Shown here one piece after another: positions 4,334 to 13,173 of a stretch of DNA of 32,570 nt. Every line of letters starts with the position of its first letter. The first letter of the stretch is position 1. The stretch lies in the NCBI GenBank assembly GCA_946411205.1, contig CAMKDG010000030.1:1-32570 (forward strand). The letters are read 5' to 3'. The translations under genes and the position numbers were made by a program. The stretch comes from an uncultured Desulfotomaculum sp. Its GTDB lineage: Bacteria > Bacillota > Desulfotomaculia > Desulfotomaculales > Desulfotomaculaceae. The notes under the pieces are model-generated. The model saw only the letters and a list, made by a program, of their open reading frames with translations, was not told where the DNA came from and did not search any database.

Positions 4334-5632
4334 TCAGTTGCTATTTTCCCTTAAATCGTAAACCCGTTTGCTTTTCTTTTCCACCCGAGGCAAACTGCCA
4401 TAAGGCACGACTTCTACATCACTCTGAATACCAATGCGAGTTTTCATATTGCGTTTAATATCCTGGCTTACCTTCTCAAATGCCGCCCCTTCTTGGGCCT
4501 CCAGCTTAACCAGGATACGGTCTTTACCCTCGCTACGGGTAAGAATTAGTTGATATTCACTGCCTGCGCCCTCTGTTTGCTTTAAAACATGATCAATCTG
4601 TCCGGGATAGATGTTAACCCCCTTCACTTTAACCATGTCATCTGTTCTGCCCAGAATCCGGTCGATCCTCGGAAAAGGAGAACCGCAGGGACAGCTATCT
4701 GTACGAAGCCGGGTGATGTCATGGGTACGGTAACGCAACAGGGGCATGCCCTCTTTACTCAAAGTAGTAATCACCAGTTCTCCCTGCTCACCAGGTGGCA
4801 GCGGTTGACCGGATACAGGATCAATAATCTCAAACAGCAGGTGATCCGACCAGAAGTGCATGCCCTGATGATAAGAACAATCAATAGCGATGCCTGGACC
4901 GTAAATTTCAGTAAGACCATAAATATCAAAGGTATCAATACCGAGCAGTTCTTCTATGCGGCGGCGCATTTTAGTTCCCCAACGCTCACTACCAAAGATA
5001 GCCCTTTGCAAACGCAAACGACTCTGTAAACCTCGTTTATCAATTTCTTCTGCCAGAAGCAAACCGTAAGAAGATGTACCAATGAGTACCGTGGTTTGCA
5101 GATCTTCCATTAACTCCAGCTGTTTTTCTGTATTACCAGGGCCGGTAGGAATGGCCATGGCACCTAGCCGCTCTGCCCCAGCTTGAAAACCAATACCTGC
5201 GGTCCACAACCCATATCCTGGGGTTACCTGTATCCTATCTTTCTTGGTAACACCGGTCATTTCCAAGCAGCGGGCCATCATCTCAGCCCAGGTGGCCACA
5301 TCCCCTGCGGTATAGGGTACAATGATAGCTTTACCCGTAGTCCCGGAAGAAGAATGGATACGTACCACCTCTTCATCTGGCACCGCCTGCATTCCCAAGG
5401 GGTATACTGATCTCAACTCTGCCTTGGTGGTAAAGGGCACCATCGCCAAATCTTGAATCGTTTTTATCTGCTCTGGACGAACTCCGGCTTCTTCTAATTT
5501 TTGCCGATAAAAAGAAGATTTTTGAAAAAGCCGCTGGATAAGTGTCTGCAGTTTTTTTTCTTGTTCCTCATGAAGGCGATCATAGTCAAAGTCCGCTTCC
5601 CTTTGTCTGATCAATAGAGACAACCTATTCAC
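4334..5632 (-). CDS. paaK: Phenylacetate-CoA ligase family (arylacetyl-CoA ligase)
   Basis: Adenylate-forming ligase that activates an arylacetate to its CoA thioester with ATP. Length (432 aa) is typical of PaaK. Visible motifs: the P-loop-like SSSGTTGK (about 94-101), YGLTE in the middle, and LLRYRTHD before the C-terminal domain with GRTDDMVKVKGVNIYP. The GTG at 5632 overlaps the iorB stop. A TTG three codons in (5623) sits 6 nt after GGGGGGTG and may be the true start. It is the last gene of the trpP-ecf-ior operon. Next to iorAB, the likely substrates are indoleacetate or phenylacetate, giving aryl-CoA for reductive carboxylation to arylpyruvate. Confidence 0.85.
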   Translation of the reverse strand: MNRLSLLIRQREADFDYDRLHEEQEKKLQTLIQRLFQKSSFYRQKLEEAGVRPEQIKTIQDLAMVPFTTKAELRSVYPLGMQAVPDEEVVRIHSSSGTTGKAIIVPYTAGDVATWAEMMARCLEMTGVTKKDRIQVTPGYGLWTAGIGFQAGAERLGAMAIPTGPGNTEKQLELMEDLQTTVLIGTSSYGLLLAEEIDKRGLQSRLRLQRAIFGSERWGTKMRRRIEELLGIDTFDIYGLTEIYGPGIAIDCSYHQGMHFWSDHLLFEIIDPVSGQPLPPGEQGELVITTLSKEGMPLLRYRTHDITRLRTDSCPCGSPFPRIDRILGRTDDMVKVKGVNIYPGQIDHVLKQTEGAGSEYQLILTRSEGKDRILVKLEAQEGAAFEKVSQDIKRNMKTRIGIQSDVEVVPYGSLPRVEKKSKRVYDLRENSN

Positions 5633-6215
5633 CCCCCAAAGCTTGTCGTCCTAATTCAAAGGCCCGCAAATTAATATCACGCAGTTTCGGCGGTATTACA
5701 TCCAGCATGACTTGTTTTAAATGTTTTTCATCATAGGGCAGTATCCCCAGGGAAGCCAAGGCTCCCAGCATGACAATATTGGTACATTTGTAGGTGCCAG
5801 CCTCACCTGCCAGTGCTGTGGCATCCAATAAATGATAATGGGCGTCGGTATTTTCCAGGTATGAGATCATCTGCTCTGGTTCATATTGTGATAATCCCAA
5901 TGAAACAGACACGGGATAGATGGTCTGGCGATTGGCAATGACCACGCCTCCGGACTTCAACTTGGCTAACCCCCGAATGGTTTCCGCCAGTTCAAAACCC
6001 AGCAAAACGTCCGCACTACCATCCGGTATCAGAGCACCGTAAGCTCCTTCGCCCATGCGGACCTGGCTCATCACCACGCCCTCCCGCTGAGCCATACCAA
6101 TAGCTTCGGAGGTGCGGACAGGTAAGCCCCATTCCATGGCTGCCTTGGCCAAAATACGGGAAGCCAGTACATTTCCTTGACCTCCGACACCAGTTATCAC
6201 AATGTCTAATCTCAT
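5625..6215 (-). CDS. iorB: Indolepyruvate:ferredoxin oxidoreductase, beta subunit
   Basis: Gamma-domain type subunit of the 2-oxoacid:ferredoxin oxidoreductase family, 196 aa. The N-terminus VITGVGGQGNVLASRILAKA is the signature of IorB, followed by RTSEAIGMAQREGVVMSQVR. It partners IorA to interconvert arylpyruvate and arylacyl-CoA with ferredoxin. ATG 6215 is chosen because it overlaps the iorA stop as ATGA (translational coupling) and removes an unrelated N-terminal extension that would be read from iorA sequence in another frame. Its 3' end overlaps the paaK start. Confidence 0.9.
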   Translation of the reverse strand: MRLDIVITGVGGQGNVLASRILAKAAMEWGLPVRTSEAIGMAQREGVVMSQVRMGEGAYGALIPDGSADVLLGFELAETIRGLAKLKSGGVVIANRQTIYPVSVSLGLSQYEPEQMISYLENTDAHYHLLDATALAGEAGTYKCTNIVMLGALASLGILPYDEKHLKQVMLDVIPPKLRDINLRAFELGRQALGGE

Positions 6216-8017
6216 TTTGCTCCACCTCTTTCGATAATGGCTCCGGAAGGACATAATTGACGACACAGGTCGCAGCCAGTACAGGAAGCTCCAATGACTG
6301 GGCCTTCCTCTCCTTTGGCAATGGCCGGACAACCCAGTTCCTCTATACATAAACCACAATCCAAGCATTTTTCCGAGTCAATCATTCTGGCTGTCTGGCC
6401 ACCTTTCACTATGGCCACACACTCCCGCCGCATAACTACTACGGCAACACCCTCATAGGCCAGTGCCTGCCGGGCCACTTCCAGGGAAGCTGCATAATCG
6501 TAGGGATCAACCACACGAACAAAGCCAACCCCACAGGCCTCTGCCAATCGAGCAATATCCAAGGGTTCCACTGGCTCACCAATAGCGGTGCGTGGTAAGC
6601 CCGGGTGGCTTTGGTGCCCAGTCATGGCCGTGGTGCGATTATCCAGCACCACCACAGTTTGTTTCGCCTGGTTGTGCACAGCATTGATGAGCCCCGGAAT
6701 ACCGGTATGGAAAAAGGTAGAATCCCCCAGAAAAGCCACCACTTTTTTGTTTGTTTCTACCATCTGTAAGCCACTGCCAATGGTAATACTGGCCCCCATA
6801 CATAAGCAAGTATCCACAGCGTGAAGTGGGGCCATATTGCCTAGGGTGTAACAGCCAATATCTCCGGTGAAAATAGCATCCGCTCCTAAAGCTGCCTGCT
6901 TAAACGCATAAAAGGAAGCACGGTGGGGACAGCCGGCACATAATATCGGTGGTCGAACCGGTAGCGGAGGTGGATTAAACACGTTCTTATGATCTGGCAA
7001 CTCAATTTTTAAAAAGTCCGCTATGATTTCTTTCACCTTGCCGGTATCCAACTCCCCTTCCCGGGGCACAAACCGATTATATTTCCCTCGCAAAATCACC
7101 GGTCTCCGATGATGAAAGATCATTTGAATTAATTGATCTTCTATTACAGGTTCCTGTTCTTCCACCACCAGTACCCGATCTAATTTATCCAAGTATTTCA
7201 TCACTACGTTAATTGGCAGGGGATAAGGAGTCCCTATCTTGAGCACCGGTATATCTAAACCTAATAAAGCCAAAGCTTCTTTTACATAATGGTAGGCTAC
7301 GCCCCCGGCAATGATCCCCTGTCGACCAGTTCCAGGGTCGATGCGGTTAAAGGAACTGCTTTCAAATAATTCGCGGGCTACATCCTGCTGTTGATTGAGC
7401 CAACTATGCCTTTTGGCCGCAAGGCTTGGAAAAATAACCCACCCTGGGCTCTTTTCAAAGCCTGCTGGCTCTTGCGTCGGTAATACTGCTTCAGACACTT
7501 CAACATCCTGGCAAACGTGACAGGTGCGGGTGGTGGGACGGAGCAGCACCGGCAATCCTAACTTTTCGGATATCTCGAAGGCTTCTCTGGCCATGATCAA
7601 CGCCTCTTGGGGGTCTGCCGGGTCCAGCACCGGTAGTTTGGCAAAGCTGGCAAACCTTCTCGTGTCCTGCTCATTTTGAGAACTATGCGGACCCGGGTCA
7701 TCGGCCACCACCAGTACCAAACCACCCTTAATACCGATATAGGCCAGGGTCATTAAAGGATCAGCAGCTACATTAAGCCCCACTTGTTTCATTGTGACCA
7801 TAGCTCTGGCTCCGGCATAGGCCGCTCCGGCTGCTACCTCCAAAGCTACCTTTTCATTTACTGACCACTGGGCAACAATTTTCTTTTCCTTAGCCATTGC
7901 TGCTAGGCTCGTAAATACCTCTGAAGAGGGAGTTCCCGGGTAGCCGGTTACTACCTGAACGCCACCTTCTATAGCACCATAGGCCATGGCTTCGTTTCCC
8001 ATTAATAGTTTTTTCAT
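6212..8017 (-). CDS. iorA: Indolepyruvate:ferredoxin oxidoreductase, alpha subunit
   Basis: Thiamine-diphosphate and iron-sulfur subunit, 601 aa, normal for the family. N-terminal pyrimidine-binding domain: GNEAMAYGAIEGGVQVVTGYPGTPSS. Central TPP domain: CAGCPHRASFY, GDIGCYTLG and FLGDSTFFHTG (metal/TPP-binding GDS...). C-terminus carries two 4Fe-4S motifs, CLDCGLCIEELGCP and CTGCDLCRQLCP. The reaction is arylpyruvate + CoA + oxidised ferredoxin to arylacyl-CoA + CO2 + reduced ferredoxin, and is reversible. ATG 8017 is preferred over 8032 because GGAGGT lies between them. It follows ecfT by 17 nt in the operon and overlaps iorB by 4 nt. Confidence 0.92.
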   Translation of the reverse strand: MKKLLMGNEAMAYGAIEGGVQVVTGYPGTPSSEVFTSLAAMAKEKKIVAQWSVNEKVALEVAAGAAYAGARAMVTMKQVGLNVAADPLMTLAYIGIKGGLVLVVADDPGPHSSQNEQDTRRFASFAKLPVLDPADPQEALIMAREAFEISEKLGLPVLLRPTTRTCHVCQDVEVSEAVLPTQEPAGFEKSPGWVIFPSLAAKRHSWLNQQQDVARELFESSSFNRIDPGTGRQGIIAGGVAYHYVKEALALLGLDIPVLKIGTPYPLPINVVMKYLDKLDRVLVVEEQEPVIEDQLIQMIFHHRRPVILRGKYNRFVPREGELDTGKVKEIIADFLKIELPDHKNVFNPPPLPVRPPILCAGCPHRASFYAFKQAALGADAIFTGDIGCYTLGNMAPLHAVDTCLCMGASITIGSGLQMVETNKKVVAFLGDSTFFHTGIPGLINAVHNQAKQTVVVLDNRTTAMTGHQSHPGLPRTAIGEPVEPLDIARLAEACGVGFVRVVDPYDYAASLEVARQALAYEGVAVVVMRRECVAIVKGGQTARMIDSEKCLDCGLCIEELGCPAIAKGEEGPVIGASCTGCDLCRQLCPSGAIIERGGAK

Positions 8018-8034
8018 AAAAACTACCTCCATTA

Positions 8035-8784
8035 CTAGTGAAGAACTCCTAAACCCTTACATCTCAAAATAATTGCACCAATAATCAGGATAACCACCAG
8101 AAATATTACAAAATAGTCTAAAGTGCTGATGACTGGTTCTTTATAATAGGTTCGGTTATTACTGCCATAGCCCCTGGTTTCCATAGCAATGGCCAGCCTC
8201 TCTGCTTTTTTTAGAGAGATTAAAACGAGAGGTAGGGCCACCGCAATATAGGCTTTCATCTTGCGCCAAGGGTTGCCGCTATCGATGGGACACCCCCTAA
8301 CCTGCTGGGCATAACCCACTTGGATGGCTTCATTTAAAAAGGTGGGCACAAAACGCAGCGAGGTCATGAACATAAACACATAATCGTAGGGGAGTTTCAT
8401 TTTTTCAGTAAGTACCAGAATAATATCTTTATACTGAGTGGTGCTTAGAAAAACTAAAAAACTCAGCACCACCGTCATCATACGAAGTCCCATGGCTATG
8501 CCCAAAGCGATGGCTTCCTGGTATGCTCCATGGTAAAAAATCACTTGTAAGAGAACAAGGATCAAAGCAAAGATACTCAGGCCTTTCATAACACCGGATA
8601 AATCCTTCAGTACTCGTCCTGTTAAACCAACCAGCCCCACCGATAGTAACAAGGCCAACAGGTAATAGGGATCATTGAAAGTCAAGGCCAGCACCATAAC
8701 TCCCAGCGCCCAAGCTAATTTGCTTACGGGATTTAGCTGATGTATGATGGAATCTCGGTAAATATACTCAATCACCCGTGCCAT
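8035..8784 (-). CDS. ecfT: ECF transporter transmembrane component EcfT
   Basis: A 249-aa membrane protein with about five hydrophobic segments. The characteristic cytoplasmic coupling region contains AMETRGYG, one of the two Ala-Arg-Gly style motifs of EcfT; the earlier one appears as AQQVRGCPID. It would bridge the two ATPases and the S component in the membrane. The start at 8784 overlaps the end of the upstream ATPase gene by 17 nt, which signals coupling. It is followed directly by iorA, tying transport to aryl-keto-acid metabolism. Confidence 0.88.
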   Translation of the reverse strand: MARVIEYIYRDSIIHQLNPVSKLAWALGVMVLALTFNDPYYLLALLLSVGLVGLTGRVLKDLSGVMKGLSIFALILVLLQVIFYHGAYQEAIALGIAMGLRMMTVVLSFLVFLSTTQYKDIILVLTEKMKLPYDYVFMFMTSLRFVPTFLNEAIQVGYAQQVRGCPIDSGNPWRKMKAYIAVALPLVLISLKKAERLAIAMETRGYGSNNRTYYKEPVISTLDYFVIFLVVILIIGAIILRCKGLGVLH

Positions 8785-9622
8785 TCCTTTTGACCTCCCT
8801 TACCCTTTGCAAATAATCCTGCATTTCATCCACTGATAAAATGACTGGGGAAACAGACGTATTTAACGGTTCATTTAATTGATTGGCCAATACGGTTACC
8901 TGAGGTGGTAACAGTAAGGATTCTGCAAGTTTATCCGTTTGTCGGAAAACTTCCCGGGTGTCGCCATCTAAAATGATTCGACCCTGACAAAGCACCACCA
9001 CTCGACTGGCATAATGAGCCACCAAAGACATGTCGTGAGTTATGAAAACAATGGTATGCCCCGCTTTATTTAACTGCTCCACCAGAGCCATGATCTGTTT
9101 TCTCTCTTGATAGTCCTGTCCGGTGGTGGGTTCATCCAAAACAATAACAGGCGTACGCAGGGCCAGCACCGAAGCCAAAGCCACCCTCTGCCGCTGTCCC
9201 CGACTTAGACGCTGGGGATTTTCATGGGCCAAATGTTCTAAGCCAACATCACTGAGAGCTGCAGTAACTCTAGGCTCAACCTCCTCCCGAGGCAAACCCA
9301 GGTTATTGAGACCAAAGGCCACTTCAGCCTGTACGGTGTCATGAAAAATTTGGTGATCGGGGTTTTGAAAGACATAACCCACCTGCCGTGACAACTTAGA
9401 TATCCGGGTGTTCGCCACATCTAGGTCAGCCACGCTTACCTTCCCCGCAGGGGGGCGTAGTAAGCCAATCAGGTGTTTTACTAAAGTGGTTTTACCGGCT
9501 CCATTTTGACCCACCAAGGCTACCATTTCGCCGGGGGAAATTTCCAGATAAATGTCTTTCAAAACCGAATCACCAAATTCATAGCCAAAGGATAGTCCAT
9601 TTATTTTTATGACAGGGTTCAT
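8768..9622 (-). CDS. ECF transporter ATPase
   Basis: ABC ATPase, 284 aa. Walker A GQNGAGKTT, Q-loop YVFQNPDHQIF, signature LSRGQRQR (an R replaces the usual second G), Walker B VIVLDEPTTGQD and switch His in FITHD are all present. The Q-loop sequence FQNPDxQ is typical of energy-coupling-factor ATPases. ATG 9622 follows GGAGGTTAACA; that GGAGGT overlaps the 3' end of the upstream ATPase gene. A longer frame from 9658 adds residues not typical of the family. It pairs with the other ATPase at 9625-10479 as an EcfA/EcfA' heterodimer. Which is A1 and which A2 is not certain. Confidence 0.88.
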   Translation of the reverse strand: MNPVIKINGLSFGYEFGDSVLKDIYLEISPGEMVALVGQNGAGKTTLVKHLIGLLRPPAGKVSVADLDVANTRISKLSRQVGYVFQNPDHQIFHDTVQAEVAFGLNNLGLPREEVEPRVTAALSDVGLEHLAHENPQRLSRGQRQRVALASVLALRTPVIVLDEPTTGQDYQERKQIMALVEQLNKAGHTIVFITHDMSLVAHYASRVVVLCQGRIILDGDTREVFRQTDKLAESLLLPPQVTVLANQLNEPLNTSVSPVILSVDEMQDYLQRVREVKRNGTGD

Positions 9623-9624
9623 TG

Positions 9625-10479
9625 TTAACCTCCGAAGGATAGAATTACATTGCGACAAAATTGAACCCCTTCATCCAGTGTAATGGGTGGTTCGGCCTGT
9701 GGATAATATCGACGGGCCAGTTCCGTTACTTCGGGTAGGGCTACCCCTAACTCAAAAATATCTTGGTGTTGAAACACCTCCCGCGGTGTACCGGACAACA
9801 CCATTTCACCCTCCCGGAGAATAACCAATTGGTCGCAATAGCGGGCCAATAAATCTGTTTTTTGCTCCGTTACCAGGATGGTCATACCCTGCTCCTGATG
9901 AAGCTGCTTTAACACTCGAAAAACCTCTTCACTGCCCAGGGGATCTAGCTCTGAGGTTGGCTCATCCAAAACCAATACCTCGGGTAGCATAGCCAGCGCT
10001 GCGGCAATAGCCAGCCGCTGTTTCTGCCCGCCGGACAAAGATGCGGTGGAACGGCCAAGCAAATGAGCAATACCGACACTGGCCAGGGCTTTTTGCATCC
10101 GTTGCTCCATTTCTGCCGGTGGCACACCATAGTTTTCCATGCCAAAGACTAATTCCTGTTCTACGTCTAGACAAATAATCTGGGCTTCTGGATCATCCAG
10201 CACGGTTCCCACTGAGCGGCCAATTTCAGCTGTGGACATGGTGTCTGCAGCCTTCCCGTTGAGTAGGACTTCGCCACTAAAGGTGCCACCTTCAAAGTGA
10301 GGCACAATGCCATTGATTGATTTGATGAGAGTGGTTTTACCCGCCCCGGTGGGGCCGGCAAAACCAACAAAGGAACCTTTCTTAAGAGACAGGTTAATAC
10401 TCTTCAAGGCATTATTTGCTGTGTGCGGATACTGATAGGTGAAATTATTTAATTGAATAAGAAAATTATTTGAAGTCAT
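9625..10479 (-). CDS. ECF transporter ATPase
   Basis: ABC ATPase, 284 aa. Walker A is GPTGAGKTT, signature LSGGQKQR, Walker B VLVLDEPTSELD. The Q-loop region reads LDDPEAQII, with Asp in place of the usual Gln (FQNPExQ), a difference from its partner. The catalytic switch region reads LVTEQKTD, lacking the usual His (ITHD). Together these suggest the degenerate half of an asymmetric ATPase pair, with the second ATPase carrying the canonical site. It starts 20 nt after the S-component gene and ends 3 nt before the next start. Confidence 0.85.
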   Translation of the reverse strand: MTSNNFLIQLNNFTYQYPHTANNALKSINLSLKKGSFVGFAGPTGAGKTTLIKSINGIVPHFEGGTFSGEVLLNGKAADTMSTAEIGRSVGTVLDDPEAQIICLDVEQELVFGMENYGVPPAEMEQRMQKALASVGIAHLLGRSTASLSGGQKQRLAIAAALAMLPEVLVLDEPTSELDPLGSEEVFRVLKQLHQEQGMTILVTEQKTDLLARYCDQLVILREGEMVLSGTPREVFQHQDIFELGVALPEVTELARRYYPQAEPPITLDEGVQFCRNVILSFGG

Positions 10480-10499: not shown

Positions 10500-11057
10500 C
10501 TAACGAAAAAGAAATTTCTTTACCGGGACATATAAAGCTTGGGCGATAACTGTATTAATCAGAGCTACCGGAATAACGACACCAATAAAAGCAGCTTTCA
10601 TGGCAGTTACCGGTAGATGCAAAGCTAAATGAAAATTCAACGCTACATAGAGGCCCCCGCTGATTAAAGTGCCTATAAAGGTAGCCAAGCCGGGCTTGAA
10701 GGAGTAGTTTTTCAGAGAAAACTCCGGTAGATAGGCGGCCAAAAGGGCACAAACCAAGGCGCCAGAGGGTTCAGTGGCTAGATTCAGATAGGGAATGGGT
10801 GACTTAGAAAAAATCATGCTGACCGCCCCGGCCACAACACCAATACCCAGGGCAGGACCAATGGCTGGTCGCAGAAGAAGTATTGCTAAACAGTACATAG
10901 CAATTATGAAGTTCGGGGTAATGCCTAAAATGGCTGGGGAAAACATGCGTAGGACTGCACCTATGGCAATCAAAAAGGCAATAACTGCAATTTCTTTGGA
11001 CCTGCTCATTTTACCGACAACCACTTGACTAGCGGTGGATTGATTACTCATCATCAT
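10500..11057 (-). CDS. trpP: ECF transporter S component, TrpP-like (predicted tryptophan uptake)
   Basis: A 185-aa membrane protein with about five to six hydrophobic helices after a polar N-terminus. The stretch SKEIAVIAFLIAIGAVLRMF followed by GITPNFIIAMYCLAILL resembles the opening of TrpP-family substrate-binding subunits. Three consecutive ATGs follow GAGGAGAG, so the exact start may be any of them. It is the first gene of the operon and is followed by two ATPases and EcfT, a full group I-like ECF set. The tryptophan assignment is inference from family resemblance, the (G/U)AG-repeat leader upstream and the iorAB/paaK genes downstream; another aromatic substrate is possible. Confidence 0.72.
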   Translation of the reverse strand: MMMSNQSTASQVVVGKMSRSKEIAVIAFLIAIGAVLRMFSPAILGITPNFIIAMYCLAILLLRPAIGPALGIGVVAGAVSMIFSKSPIPYLNLATEPSGALVCALLAAYLPEFSLKNYSFKPGLATFIGTLISGGLYVALNFHLALHLPVTAMKAAFIGVVIPVALINTVIAQALYVPVKKFLFR

Positions 11058-11170
11058 CTCTCCTCATCTCAATAAAAACTTGGCTTTCTCGTCTGTCTGC
11101 CTGCTTACTTGTGACCTATAAGGTTATGACCTATCGGTTATAACTGGTTAAGCCTTCTCGGGAAAATAAA

Positions 11171-11196
11171 AAACCAGACGTGAGTACGCCTGGTTT
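11171..11196 (-). terminator. Leader terminator (attenuator) of the trpP-ecf-ior operon
   Basis: On the minus strand, an 11-bp stem (5' arm 11196-11186 AAACCAGGCGT, 3' arm 11181-11171 ACGTCTGGTTT, one G-U pair) with an ACTC loop is followed by a T run extending to about 11163. It lies about 115 nt upstream of the first gene and about 20 nt after the last GAG triplet, so transcription would stop here before the genes unless prevented. Confidence 0.85.
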
Positions 11197-11215
11197 AGGA
11201 CAATGGAATAGAAAG

Positions 11216-11304
11216 CTCCACTATGCTCCCCTAGCTCAGCTCATCTCAACTCACCTCCATATGTAATTGACAAAACCTCTCTACTACGCTAAAATCCTCT
11301 GCTA
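11216..11304 (-). promoter_or_regulatory. Predicted TRAP (MtrB) binding site: (G/U)AG triplet array
   Basis: Read as minus-strand RNA, GAG or UAG triplets occur at 11257, 11252, 11247, 11242, 11237, 11233, 11228, 11223 and 11218 (5' base of each). The spacers are 2,2,2,2,1,2,2,2 nt. Upstream are UAG 11304, GAG 11299, UAG 11291, UAG 11286 and GAG 11281, the last three again at 2-nt spacing. TRAP is an 11-subunit ring that binds 9-11 such triplets spaced by 2-3 nt when loaded with tryptophan. The array ends about 20 nt before an intrinsic terminator. No T-box sequence (TGGTACCGCG) is present. This is the classical arrangement of a trp attenuator. Confidence 0.82.
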
Positions 11305-11312
11305 TGGGAACT

Positions 11313-11341
11313 AGTGTAGCATAGAAAATAACTGCTGTCAC
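11313..11341 (-). promoter_or_regulatory. Candidate promoter of the trpP operon
   Basis: Minus-strand GTGACA (11341-11336), a 17-nt spacer and TACACT (11318-11313). Transcription would begin near 11306, so the RNA would start right at the triplet array. Matches are 5 of 6 and 4 of 6. Confidence 0.55.
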
Positions 11342-12048: not shown

Positions 12049-13095
12049 CTATTTTCCCCTTCCAACAGTAATTAAAAATTTATCTTGCGGCAGCATTTCA
12101 CCAATAATAGCAGCCTCAGCCATACCACTATTGTGCAATTCCGTCAACAGTCTGGACGCGCGGGGGGCTGGTACCGCAATGAGTAAACCACCAGAGGTTT
12201 GAGGGTCGCAGAGGATATCAATCTCTTCTCTGCTTACCTTTTCTTCGATAAACAAACGGTCTCCCAAGTGATTGCGATTGTTGTAGGCTCCCCCAGGAAT
12301 AATGCCCATTCTGGCCAGCTCTCTAACTCCGGGTAAAACGGGAACTGCCTCTGCATATAGATGTAACCTCAAGCCACTGGCTTGGGCCATTTCAGCACTG
12401 TGCCCCAGCAAACCAAAGCCGGTGATATCCGTACAGGCCGATCCCCCGACCTGCTGCATCACCCGGGCTGCCTCCTTATTCAGAGCAGCCATGGTAGAAA
12501 TGGTCTTGTCAATAACAGCTTTTTCCACCAAGTCTGCCTTAATTCCCGTGTTAATAATTCCGGTCCCTAGGGGCTTGGTTAAAATTAGCAGATCCCCTGG
12601 TACGGCCGTAGCATTGCTGTAGACCTGCTTCGGGTGCACTACGCCGGTAACCGCCAGACCATACTTGGGCTCGTCATCCTGTACACTATGTCCACCAGCC
12701 ACAATAGCTCCGGCTTCGGCAACTTTATCTGCCCCTCCCCTTAGTATCTCTGCCAGTATGTCCGGCGACAGACAGGAGGGAAAACATACAATATTTAAGG
12801 CCAATAGGGGCATCCCACCCATGGCATAAACATCACTTAAAGCATTGGCAGCCGCAATTTGGCCAAAAAAATAAGGATCATCTACCATTGGTGTAAAAAA
12901 ATCCACGGTTTGAATGGTAGCTATTTCTTCATTTAAACGATAGACTGCCGCATCATCGGACGTGTCTAATCCCACCAATAGGTTTTCATTTGTCTGCTTG
13001 GGTAAATGCCGCAGTACCTGCGACAGGACATCCGGTCCTAGCTTAGCCGCTCAGCCCGCAGCTTTAGTCATTTGGGTTAGTCTGATCTCTGCCAT
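12049..13095 (-). CDS. selD: Selenide, water dikinase, itself a selenoprotein (Sec15)
   Basis: Makes selenophosphate from selenide and ATP, the selenium donor for Sec-tRNA. The frame must be read through TGA at 13053-13051. From ATG 13095 the N-terminus is MAEIRLTQMTKAAG-U-AAKLGPD, matching the SelD G(C/U)xxK catalytic motif: U15 replaces the catalytic Cys and K18 is the conserved Lys. Without read-through a pipeline would start at an internal codon and lose the catalytic residues. The rest is standard: VGLDTSDDAAVY, GGMPLLALNIVCFP, VAGGHSVQDDEPKYG, ITGFGLLGH. Total 348 aa, normal. The start follows GGAAGGGGGG. Sec-containing SelD would make selenium supply self-regulating. Confidence 0.93.
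13020..13053 (-). ncRNA. Candidate bacterial SECIS hairpin in selD
   Basis: Eleven nt after the UGA, the mRNA forms AGGAC (13039-13035), loop CGGAU (13034-13030), GUCCU (13029-13025), extendable by one U-G pair. The loop position (about 17-21 nt from the UGA) and G-containing apical loop fit bacterial SECIS elements bound by SelB. Confidence 0.6.
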
Positions 13096-13173
13096 GGTAT
13101 CCCCCCTTCCGTTTAACTATCTTTCCCATTATTTAGCGCTTCGCCAATAATTATGTACATTCCTGTTCACCGT

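Follow-up and report, generated by a model that had tools for sequence, protein, structure and literature searches.

The window analyzed here, 32,570 nucleotides of an uncultured Desulfotomaculum sp. (contig CAMKDG010000030.1 of assembly GCA_946411205.1), carries on its minus strand an operon with the order trpP-ecfA-ecfA-ecfT-iorA-iorB-paaK. The leader in front of this operon is very probably a transcription attenuator through which TRAP, the product of mtrB, would control the whole operon as a tryptophan-acquisition unit. The genes encode an energy-coupling factor (ECF) transporter, the two subunits of an indolepyruvate ferredoxin oxidoreductase (IOR) and a PaaK-like arylacetate-CoA ligase. 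TRAP is known mostly from Bacillus, with a handful of targets, and a TRAP-type attenuator has about 9–11 (G/U)AG triplets with a spacing of mostly 2–3 nt. The leader studied here has nine such triplets, one spacer being 1 nt, and the array and a following terminator sit between yedF and trpP on one strand, with ~160 nt from the end of the array to the trpP start codon and the terminator in between. The first gene downstream is of the TrpP transporter family and fits TRAP control; ior and paaK would also serve tryptophan supply.

A preliminary description of this leader, made from the sequence alone, had listed the nine triplets and their spacers, and both were recovered exactly (Table 1). We defined a triplet chain as (G/U)AG triplets separated by 1–3 nt; by this definition the main array was the sole chain of at least four triplets in the window on either strand. 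The array was beyond chance in shuffles: among 200 dinucleotide-shuffled copies of the entire window, the longest chain had three triplets in 90, four in 100 and five in 10, and when the triplet-rich leader alone was shuffled 2000 times, one shuffle contained a chain of nine or more triplets. An array model (R1), built from the window array and 14 others, matched the window array at E 1.0e-7.

The host, which is close to Desulforamulus aeronauticus, has one mtrB gene (PF02081, 134.3 bits, E 4.6e-39). Among 14 control genomes the same profile matched only Bacillus subtilis. Residues 2-66 of the 67 matched in the host protein align to solved TRAP chains, and the LDKGE and KIRG stretches are kept, which we take to be those with the RNA-binding lysines and arginine. 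TRAP was identified in 57 genomes of a relatives set of 60 (numbered G, with the host as G000; fetched loci or stretches are numbered L), a sample of one order of anaerobic Clostridia. The host genome was also searched for anti-TRAP (PF15777), which the preliminary description had named beside mtrB, and none was found; a single genome of the 60 passed the cut-off of that family.

Exact five-triplet matches occurred at three places in the host genome: the trpP-ior operon, the trpEGDCFBA leader and an amino-acid permease. When one mismatch was allowed, the reversed control pattern gave 11 matches against 12 real ones, a high figure partly because GAG arrays match the reversed pattern too. The host regulon list rests on clustered exact matches, and two one-mismatch matches on contig C73 (stretch L084) were left out. 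The permease leader (L083, contig C53, 12045-11880, minus strand) contains two complete units of array and terminator in tandem, as do the permease leaders of G005 (L158) and G001 (L164); two TRAP attenuators in series would steepen the response.

The array is conserved in most orthologous leaders. Array presence was scored by script and by eye, and the leader clusters, promoters and terminators of relatives by eye. A TrpP match was obtained in 18 genomes, host included, and in 15 of them a chain of at least five triplets stands in place before the gene. G045 and G023 have degenerate arrays; in G048, whose orthology is doubtful (33% identity) and which was counted as a miss, there is no array. 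The operon includes ior and paaK in 14 of the 18, two of these being cut by the fetched stretch and that of G007 being frameshifted; G027 and G019 have ECF genes only, G023 is cut by the contig end, and G048 showed neither gene. In the draft assembly of G007 (L066, G007:C24) both the orthologous operon and the preceding selD-yedF are broken by frameshifts or stops, either through sequencing error or through decay.

A search of a named collection, overlapping the relatives set, located 26 loci, in Desulforamulus, Pelotomaculum, Desulfofundulus, heliobacteria, a Desulfosporosinus metagenome-assembled genome (MAG), Pseudobacteroides and other MAGs. A chain of at least five triplets was present at 19 of these loci. 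TRAP was found in 12 of the 16 genomes of this collection that were searched, and nine of the 12 have such a chain before trpP. Among the four genomes with no TRAP match, one (L100) has no array and another, a Peptococcaceae MAG (L108), has a T-box. In L108 the gene order trpP-ecf-iorAB-paaK is the same, the T-box lies at 8584-8862 (94.0 bits, cut-off 93), and UGG, the tryptophan codon, follows the conserved GAA as the apparent specifier, on our assumption that the specifier is placed directly after this GAA. A search of the L108 assembly (G069) for mtrB found none. Together, the mtrB gene of the host, the array conserved in most orthologous leaders and the TrpP-family first gene, which the preliminary description had left unnamed, support the TRAP attenuator that it proposed.

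Arrays also occur in front of ior and paaK themselves. R1 gave 48 matches in 27 of 41 genomes: 12 trpP leaders, two other host leaders, 27 places that were fetched and seven outside the analysis. The fetched places included 12 with trp synthesis genes, three with permeases and three with trpG-trpE-like pairs (G032, G031 and G017). Stand-alone iorA-iorB-paaK operons with an array of their own were present in five genomes (G002, G037, G017, G027 and G019); G027 and G019 have another array for their trpP-ecf operon. These stand-alone operons argue that ior and paaK are not mere passengers of trpP control. The R1 place in G035 precedes paaK alone, with no clear terminator seen, and that in G031 precedes a dctP-dctQ-dctM-iorA operon (Pfam), an arrangement that recurs with an array in G049 and G057.

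Two of the fetched places, G036:C48 and G012:C79, have no evident tryptophan gene; at the former (L163) an eight-triplet array and a terminator-like hairpin precede a Uma2-type gene that shows no obvious link to tryptophan. The trpG-trpE-like pairs (L170, L175 and L178), whose TRAP-like arrays share the piece GAGACGACTCGGAG, have 38-41% identity to TrpE and are possibly pabA-pabB.

The IorA places in the 60 genomes fell into two groups, which a tree of 34 rows, with the window's clade represented by 22 of its 28 places, separated at 100/100 support. In the window's clade an array stands in front of ior, directly or via trpP or dctPQM, at 24 of the 28 places, with degenerate arrays in G045 and G037 and a shortened operon in G055. 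Of the rest, G018 is borderline (its fragment G018:C307 is outside the 28), and G010, G052 and G039 have none in the fetched stretch. In the paralogous clade, to which the second ior of the host belongs, the 13 stretches examined, picked from a longer list and four of them with <210 nt before paaK, held no chain of four triplets. R1 gave no match at the paralogous ior in the 12 of these 13 genomes that its search covered. In one stretch of this clade (L220), a 60-nt segment of paaK contains nine irregular triplets. The counts for the two clades are not independent because of shared descent.

The 11-bp terminator with a U tract reported in the preliminary description was confirmed, and terminators also follow the orthologous arrays. 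The antiterminator proposed there, UAGGG with UCCUA, is as weak as it was said to be, and we replace it with a candidate pairing of 11235-11229 with 11193-11188, a complementarity whose position is conserved over 16 leaders. For this comparison the mean energy of a 14-nt stretch of leader against the leader's own terminator 5' arm was profiled over the 16 leaders, after the near-copy G005 had been dropped. One sharp optimum appeared 42 nt ahead of the arm piece (mean -7.4 kcal/mol). Shuffled sets averaged -5.1 kcal/mol (sd 0.35) at their best offset, and 0 of 60 were as low. In the window, GCU and GG of 11235-11229 would pair with CCAGGC (11193-11188), giving a duplex of five pairs, interrupted by a small internal loop, at -5.8 kcal/mol. 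Many leaders depart from the triplet register at this site, through the spacer of 1 nt in the window and through larger gaps in G040, G056 and G016, a pattern that could arise if the array had to carry a copy of the terminator's 3' arm. In 11 leaders of trp operons, the host leader L082 being omitted as its terminator was not located by the script, complementarity lay towards the array's end (offset -26), with an energy that 0 of 60 shuffles reached; with the three trpG-trpE-like leaders, 35 of 60 shuffles matched or beat the real set.

Table 1. Elements of the leader and genes of the trpP operon, in window coordinates
Feature	Position	Strand	Remarks
Promoter-like site, GTGACA-17 nt-(TG)TACACT	11313..11341	-	9/12 consensus positions; weak
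5' cluster of (G/U)AG triplets	11277..11304	-	irregular spacing; comparable clusters by eye in several relatives
Main TRAP-type array	11216..11257	-	nine (G/U)AG triplets, spacers 2,2,2,2,1,2,2,2
Putative antiterminator strand GCUAGGG inside the array	11229..11235	-	partner is terminator arm 11193-11188; one spacer shrinks to 1 nt here
Predicted hairpin AUAGUGGAG/UUCCAUUGU	11200..11224	-	9 pairs; last two triplets and pyrimidine-rich linker; single-leader folding
Intrinsic terminator	11163..11196	-	11-bp stem 11196-11171, loop of 4, U tract
trpP, ECF transporter S component	10500..11057	-	Pfam TrpP PF17099, 52.2 bits, cut-off 27.2
ECF transporter ATPase	9625..10479	-	best TIGR04520, below curated cut-off; PF00005 above cut-off
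ECF transporter ATPase	8768..9658	-	best TIGR04521, below curated cut-off; PF00005 above cut-off
ECF transporter T component	8035..8784	-	PF02361 above cut-off; TIGR02454 below cut-off
iorA, IOR alpha subunit	6212..8032	-	TIGR03336, 802.6 bits, cut-off 650.9
iorB, IOR beta subunit	5625..6215	-	start chosen at MRLDIV; PF01558 above cut-off
paaK-like arylacetate-CoA ligase, AMP-binding family	4334..5632	-	PF14535 and PF00501 above cut-off

Upstream of the array, the cluster of further triplets in the preliminary description is present, with irregular spacing. The promoter-like site it reported is also there, and comparable sites precede several orthologous arrays. The site lends weak support, since it matches 9 of 12 consensus positions and five sites of such quality were found in the 1.5 kb scanned, against 2.6 expected. 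The transcript had been described as beginning at the array; from this site it would be expected to start near 11306, in the 5' cluster and ~50 nt ahead of the main array. A plus-strand promoter-like site at 11267-11295, with 11 of 12 consensus positions, was set aside; its conservation was judged by eye. Between the 5' cluster and the main array lies an A/T-rich linker (~11276-11258, minus strand) resembling ACAATTNCATA; the orthologous leaders have one too, with loose conservation. An Rfam scan at the gathering score gave no match in the window, hence none to the T-box RF00230, and a search for a leader peptide found seven ATG/GTG/TTG open reading frames starting in 11312-11150, the longest of 10 codons and with no tryptophan codon in any.

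The family assignments of the operon genes are uneven. TrpP had no match in the NCBIfam search. IorA is above the cut-off of its own model and IorB is below that of every NCBIfam model listed (NF004917, 208.4 bits, cut-off 284; TIGR03334, 196.6 bits, cut-off 205.8, a shortfall of 9 bits). The ligase scored 434.8 bits with TIGR02155, below the equivalog cut-off of 646.3, and by score appears to be a relative of phenylacetate-CoA ligase PaaK. Beside yedF, selD (12052-13098, minus strand) has an in-frame TGA at residue 16 of the translated stretch (context AGUAAKL), and its product probably contains selenocysteine.

We infer from the array and its setting that the leader binds TRAP and responds to tryptophan. 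When tryptophan is plentiful, tryptophan-loaded TRAP would wrap the nine-triplet array and hide its center, which could otherwise pair with the terminator 5' arm; the terminator would then form and trpP-ecfAA'T-iorAB-paaK would be off. When tryptophan is scarce, TRAP would be released, the array center and the pyrimidine-rich linker would form the antiterminator, and the operon would be transcribed. The transporter would import tryptophan or a related indole. Repression by tryptophan is what one expects of genes that acquire it rather than degrade it; IOR and PaaK, which turn arylacetate into arylpyruvate when IOR works in the reducing direction, therefore most likely make indolepyruvate, which a single transamination would convert to tryptophan. 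That the operon rebuilds tryptophan from indoleacetate, via indoleacetyl-CoA formed by PaaK and reductive carboxylation to indolepyruvate by IOR running in reverse, we consider about evenly poised, the direction and substrate of IOR in this operon being inferred. The Discussion of PMC13285125 proposes a biosynthetic role, in aromatic amino acid synthesis, for an IOR adjoining an AMP-forming ligase in Bacteroides, as in methanogens.

Several observations weigh against parts of this reading. Three of the 12 TRAP-bearing genomes of the named collection lack a chain of five triplets (L109 has a chain of four, L114 an interrupted one and L091 practically none), and two with no TRAP match carry arrays (a chain of seven in L112, an interrupted one in L111). 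In L113 the array lies downstream of iorAB-paaK, and none was seen ahead of iorA. When the truncated window leader was folded from 11312, the terminator arm did not pair with the array, because the 5' end captured the array center; a start near 11306 would drop part of that 5' pairing. In a fold begun nearer the array, only the two C of the arm paired with the array center (~0.75 each) and the GGC end of the arm paired further upstream. The best array-arm duplex fell below 5% of shuffled arrays in just one of 17 single leaders, and own array-arm pairs beat swapped pairs modestly, with 3.2% of permutations as low. The terminator arms in the folding, swap and profile tests, and the array-center segments in the swap test, were chosen by eye, and the swap-test ranks are thus not independent evidence. 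As a group, six leaders from ior operons that lack trpP, including one dctPQM-ior leader, fell short of significance, since 11 of 60 shuffles reached the profile optimum.

A further point against concerns function. According to the Discussion of PMC13285125, the IOR of Bacteroides thetaiotaomicron helps convert phenylalanine to phenylacetate and that of Pyrococcus furiosus serves amino-acid fermentation. These precedents, and a TrpP-family transporter as the first gene, would suit an operon in which TRAP controls tryptophan uptake alone and ior and paaK degrade the imported tryptophan to indoleacetate for energy. We think this unlikely: an operon for tryptophan breakdown would not be expected to be shut off by tryptophan, arrays stand directly before stand-alone ior-paaK operons in five genomes and in none of the 13 stretches of the paralogous clade, and PaaK is an AMP-binding ligase, a type that, according to PMC13285125, favors acyl-CoA synthesis when AMP-forming. 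A salvage of arylacetates in general (phenylacetate, hydroxyphenylacetate) for all three aromatic amino acids, with TRAP used as tryptophan is the costliest, is a possibility that we hold as doubtful. TRAP responds to tryptophan, and the S component in the operon belongs to the TrpP family, although a broad substrate range would be compatible with both.

The remaining alternatives concern the leader itself. TRAP might act mainly by covering the ribosome site of trpP and blocking translation; trpG, trpP and ycbK of Bacillus subtilis are so controlled (PMC11255114), the window's ribosome site is rich in GAG, and chains of four and five triplets lie near those of G027 and G011. The window array, however, ends far ahead of the start codon, with the terminator between, and we consider this mechanism improbable here. 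An array that is no more than GAG-rich sequence, arisen by chance or left over as a relict, with the terminator belonging to yedF upstream, would fit the place of both between yedF and trpP on one strand, but the shuffles, the conservation over several families, mtrB in the genome and the arrays before other tryptophan genes make it very improbable indeed.

The proposed TRAP attenuator resembles that of trp synthesis in its (G/U)AG array, with which a putative antiterminator overlaps, in the intrinsic terminator downstream and in the presence of mtrB in the genome. It differs in governing a transporter and IOR/PaaK operon, in the proposed antiterminator strand lying in the array center at a broken triplet register, and in a host genome in which anti-TRAP was not found. 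Like Bacillus subtilis trpP (yhaG), it has a TRAP-type site ahead of a gene of a tryptophan-transporter family; there, however, TRAP acts at the initiation region and keeps the ribosome from binding (PMC11255114), whereas the window array precedes a terminator and ECF ATPases, a T component, IOR and PaaK follow trpP. Compared with the T-box leader on the same operon in L108, the window's signal would be tryptophan via TRAP, not tRNA charging. The enzyme pair itself is that of Bacteroides, an IOR with an AMP-forming arylacetate-CoA ligase, and of the anabolic IOR of methanogens (PMC13285125); unlike these, the pair described here is preceded by TRAP-type arrays and shares its operon with a TrpP-type ECF transporter. 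A figure in PMC2494555 marks Firmicutes with TRAP. The preliminary description had considered TRAP control of ior/paaK new, and the titles and abstract openings of open-access PubMed Central literature, with subscription literature outside the search, gave no account of it. The type of switch is known. To judge by the open literature, two things about it are new: the operon that it would control and the location of the proposed antiterminator within the array.

Taken together, we hold with middling confidence that Desulforamulus, Pelotomaculum and related anaerobic Clostridia use a distinct IOR clade and an AMP-forming ligase as a second tryptophan route from indole-3-acetate. The route would be kept in the tryptophan regulon by TRAP in most lineages, or by a Trp T-box in a lineage with no TRAP, with ECF-TrpP or DctPQM carboxylate importers and with the paralogous IOR outside the regulon. 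In the order of anaerobic Clostridia sampled, nearly all genomes have TRAP, and arrays precede trp genes, permeases, trpG-trpE-like pairs and ior-paaK; two paralogous IORs would thereby be set apart by regulation. The exchange of TRAP for a T-box on one operon would be a natural regulatory swap. Shut-off dependent on tryptophan hints at the direction of a reversible pathway, and the question of whether IOR and an acyl-CoA ligase build or burn aromatic amino acids thereby becomes directly testable.
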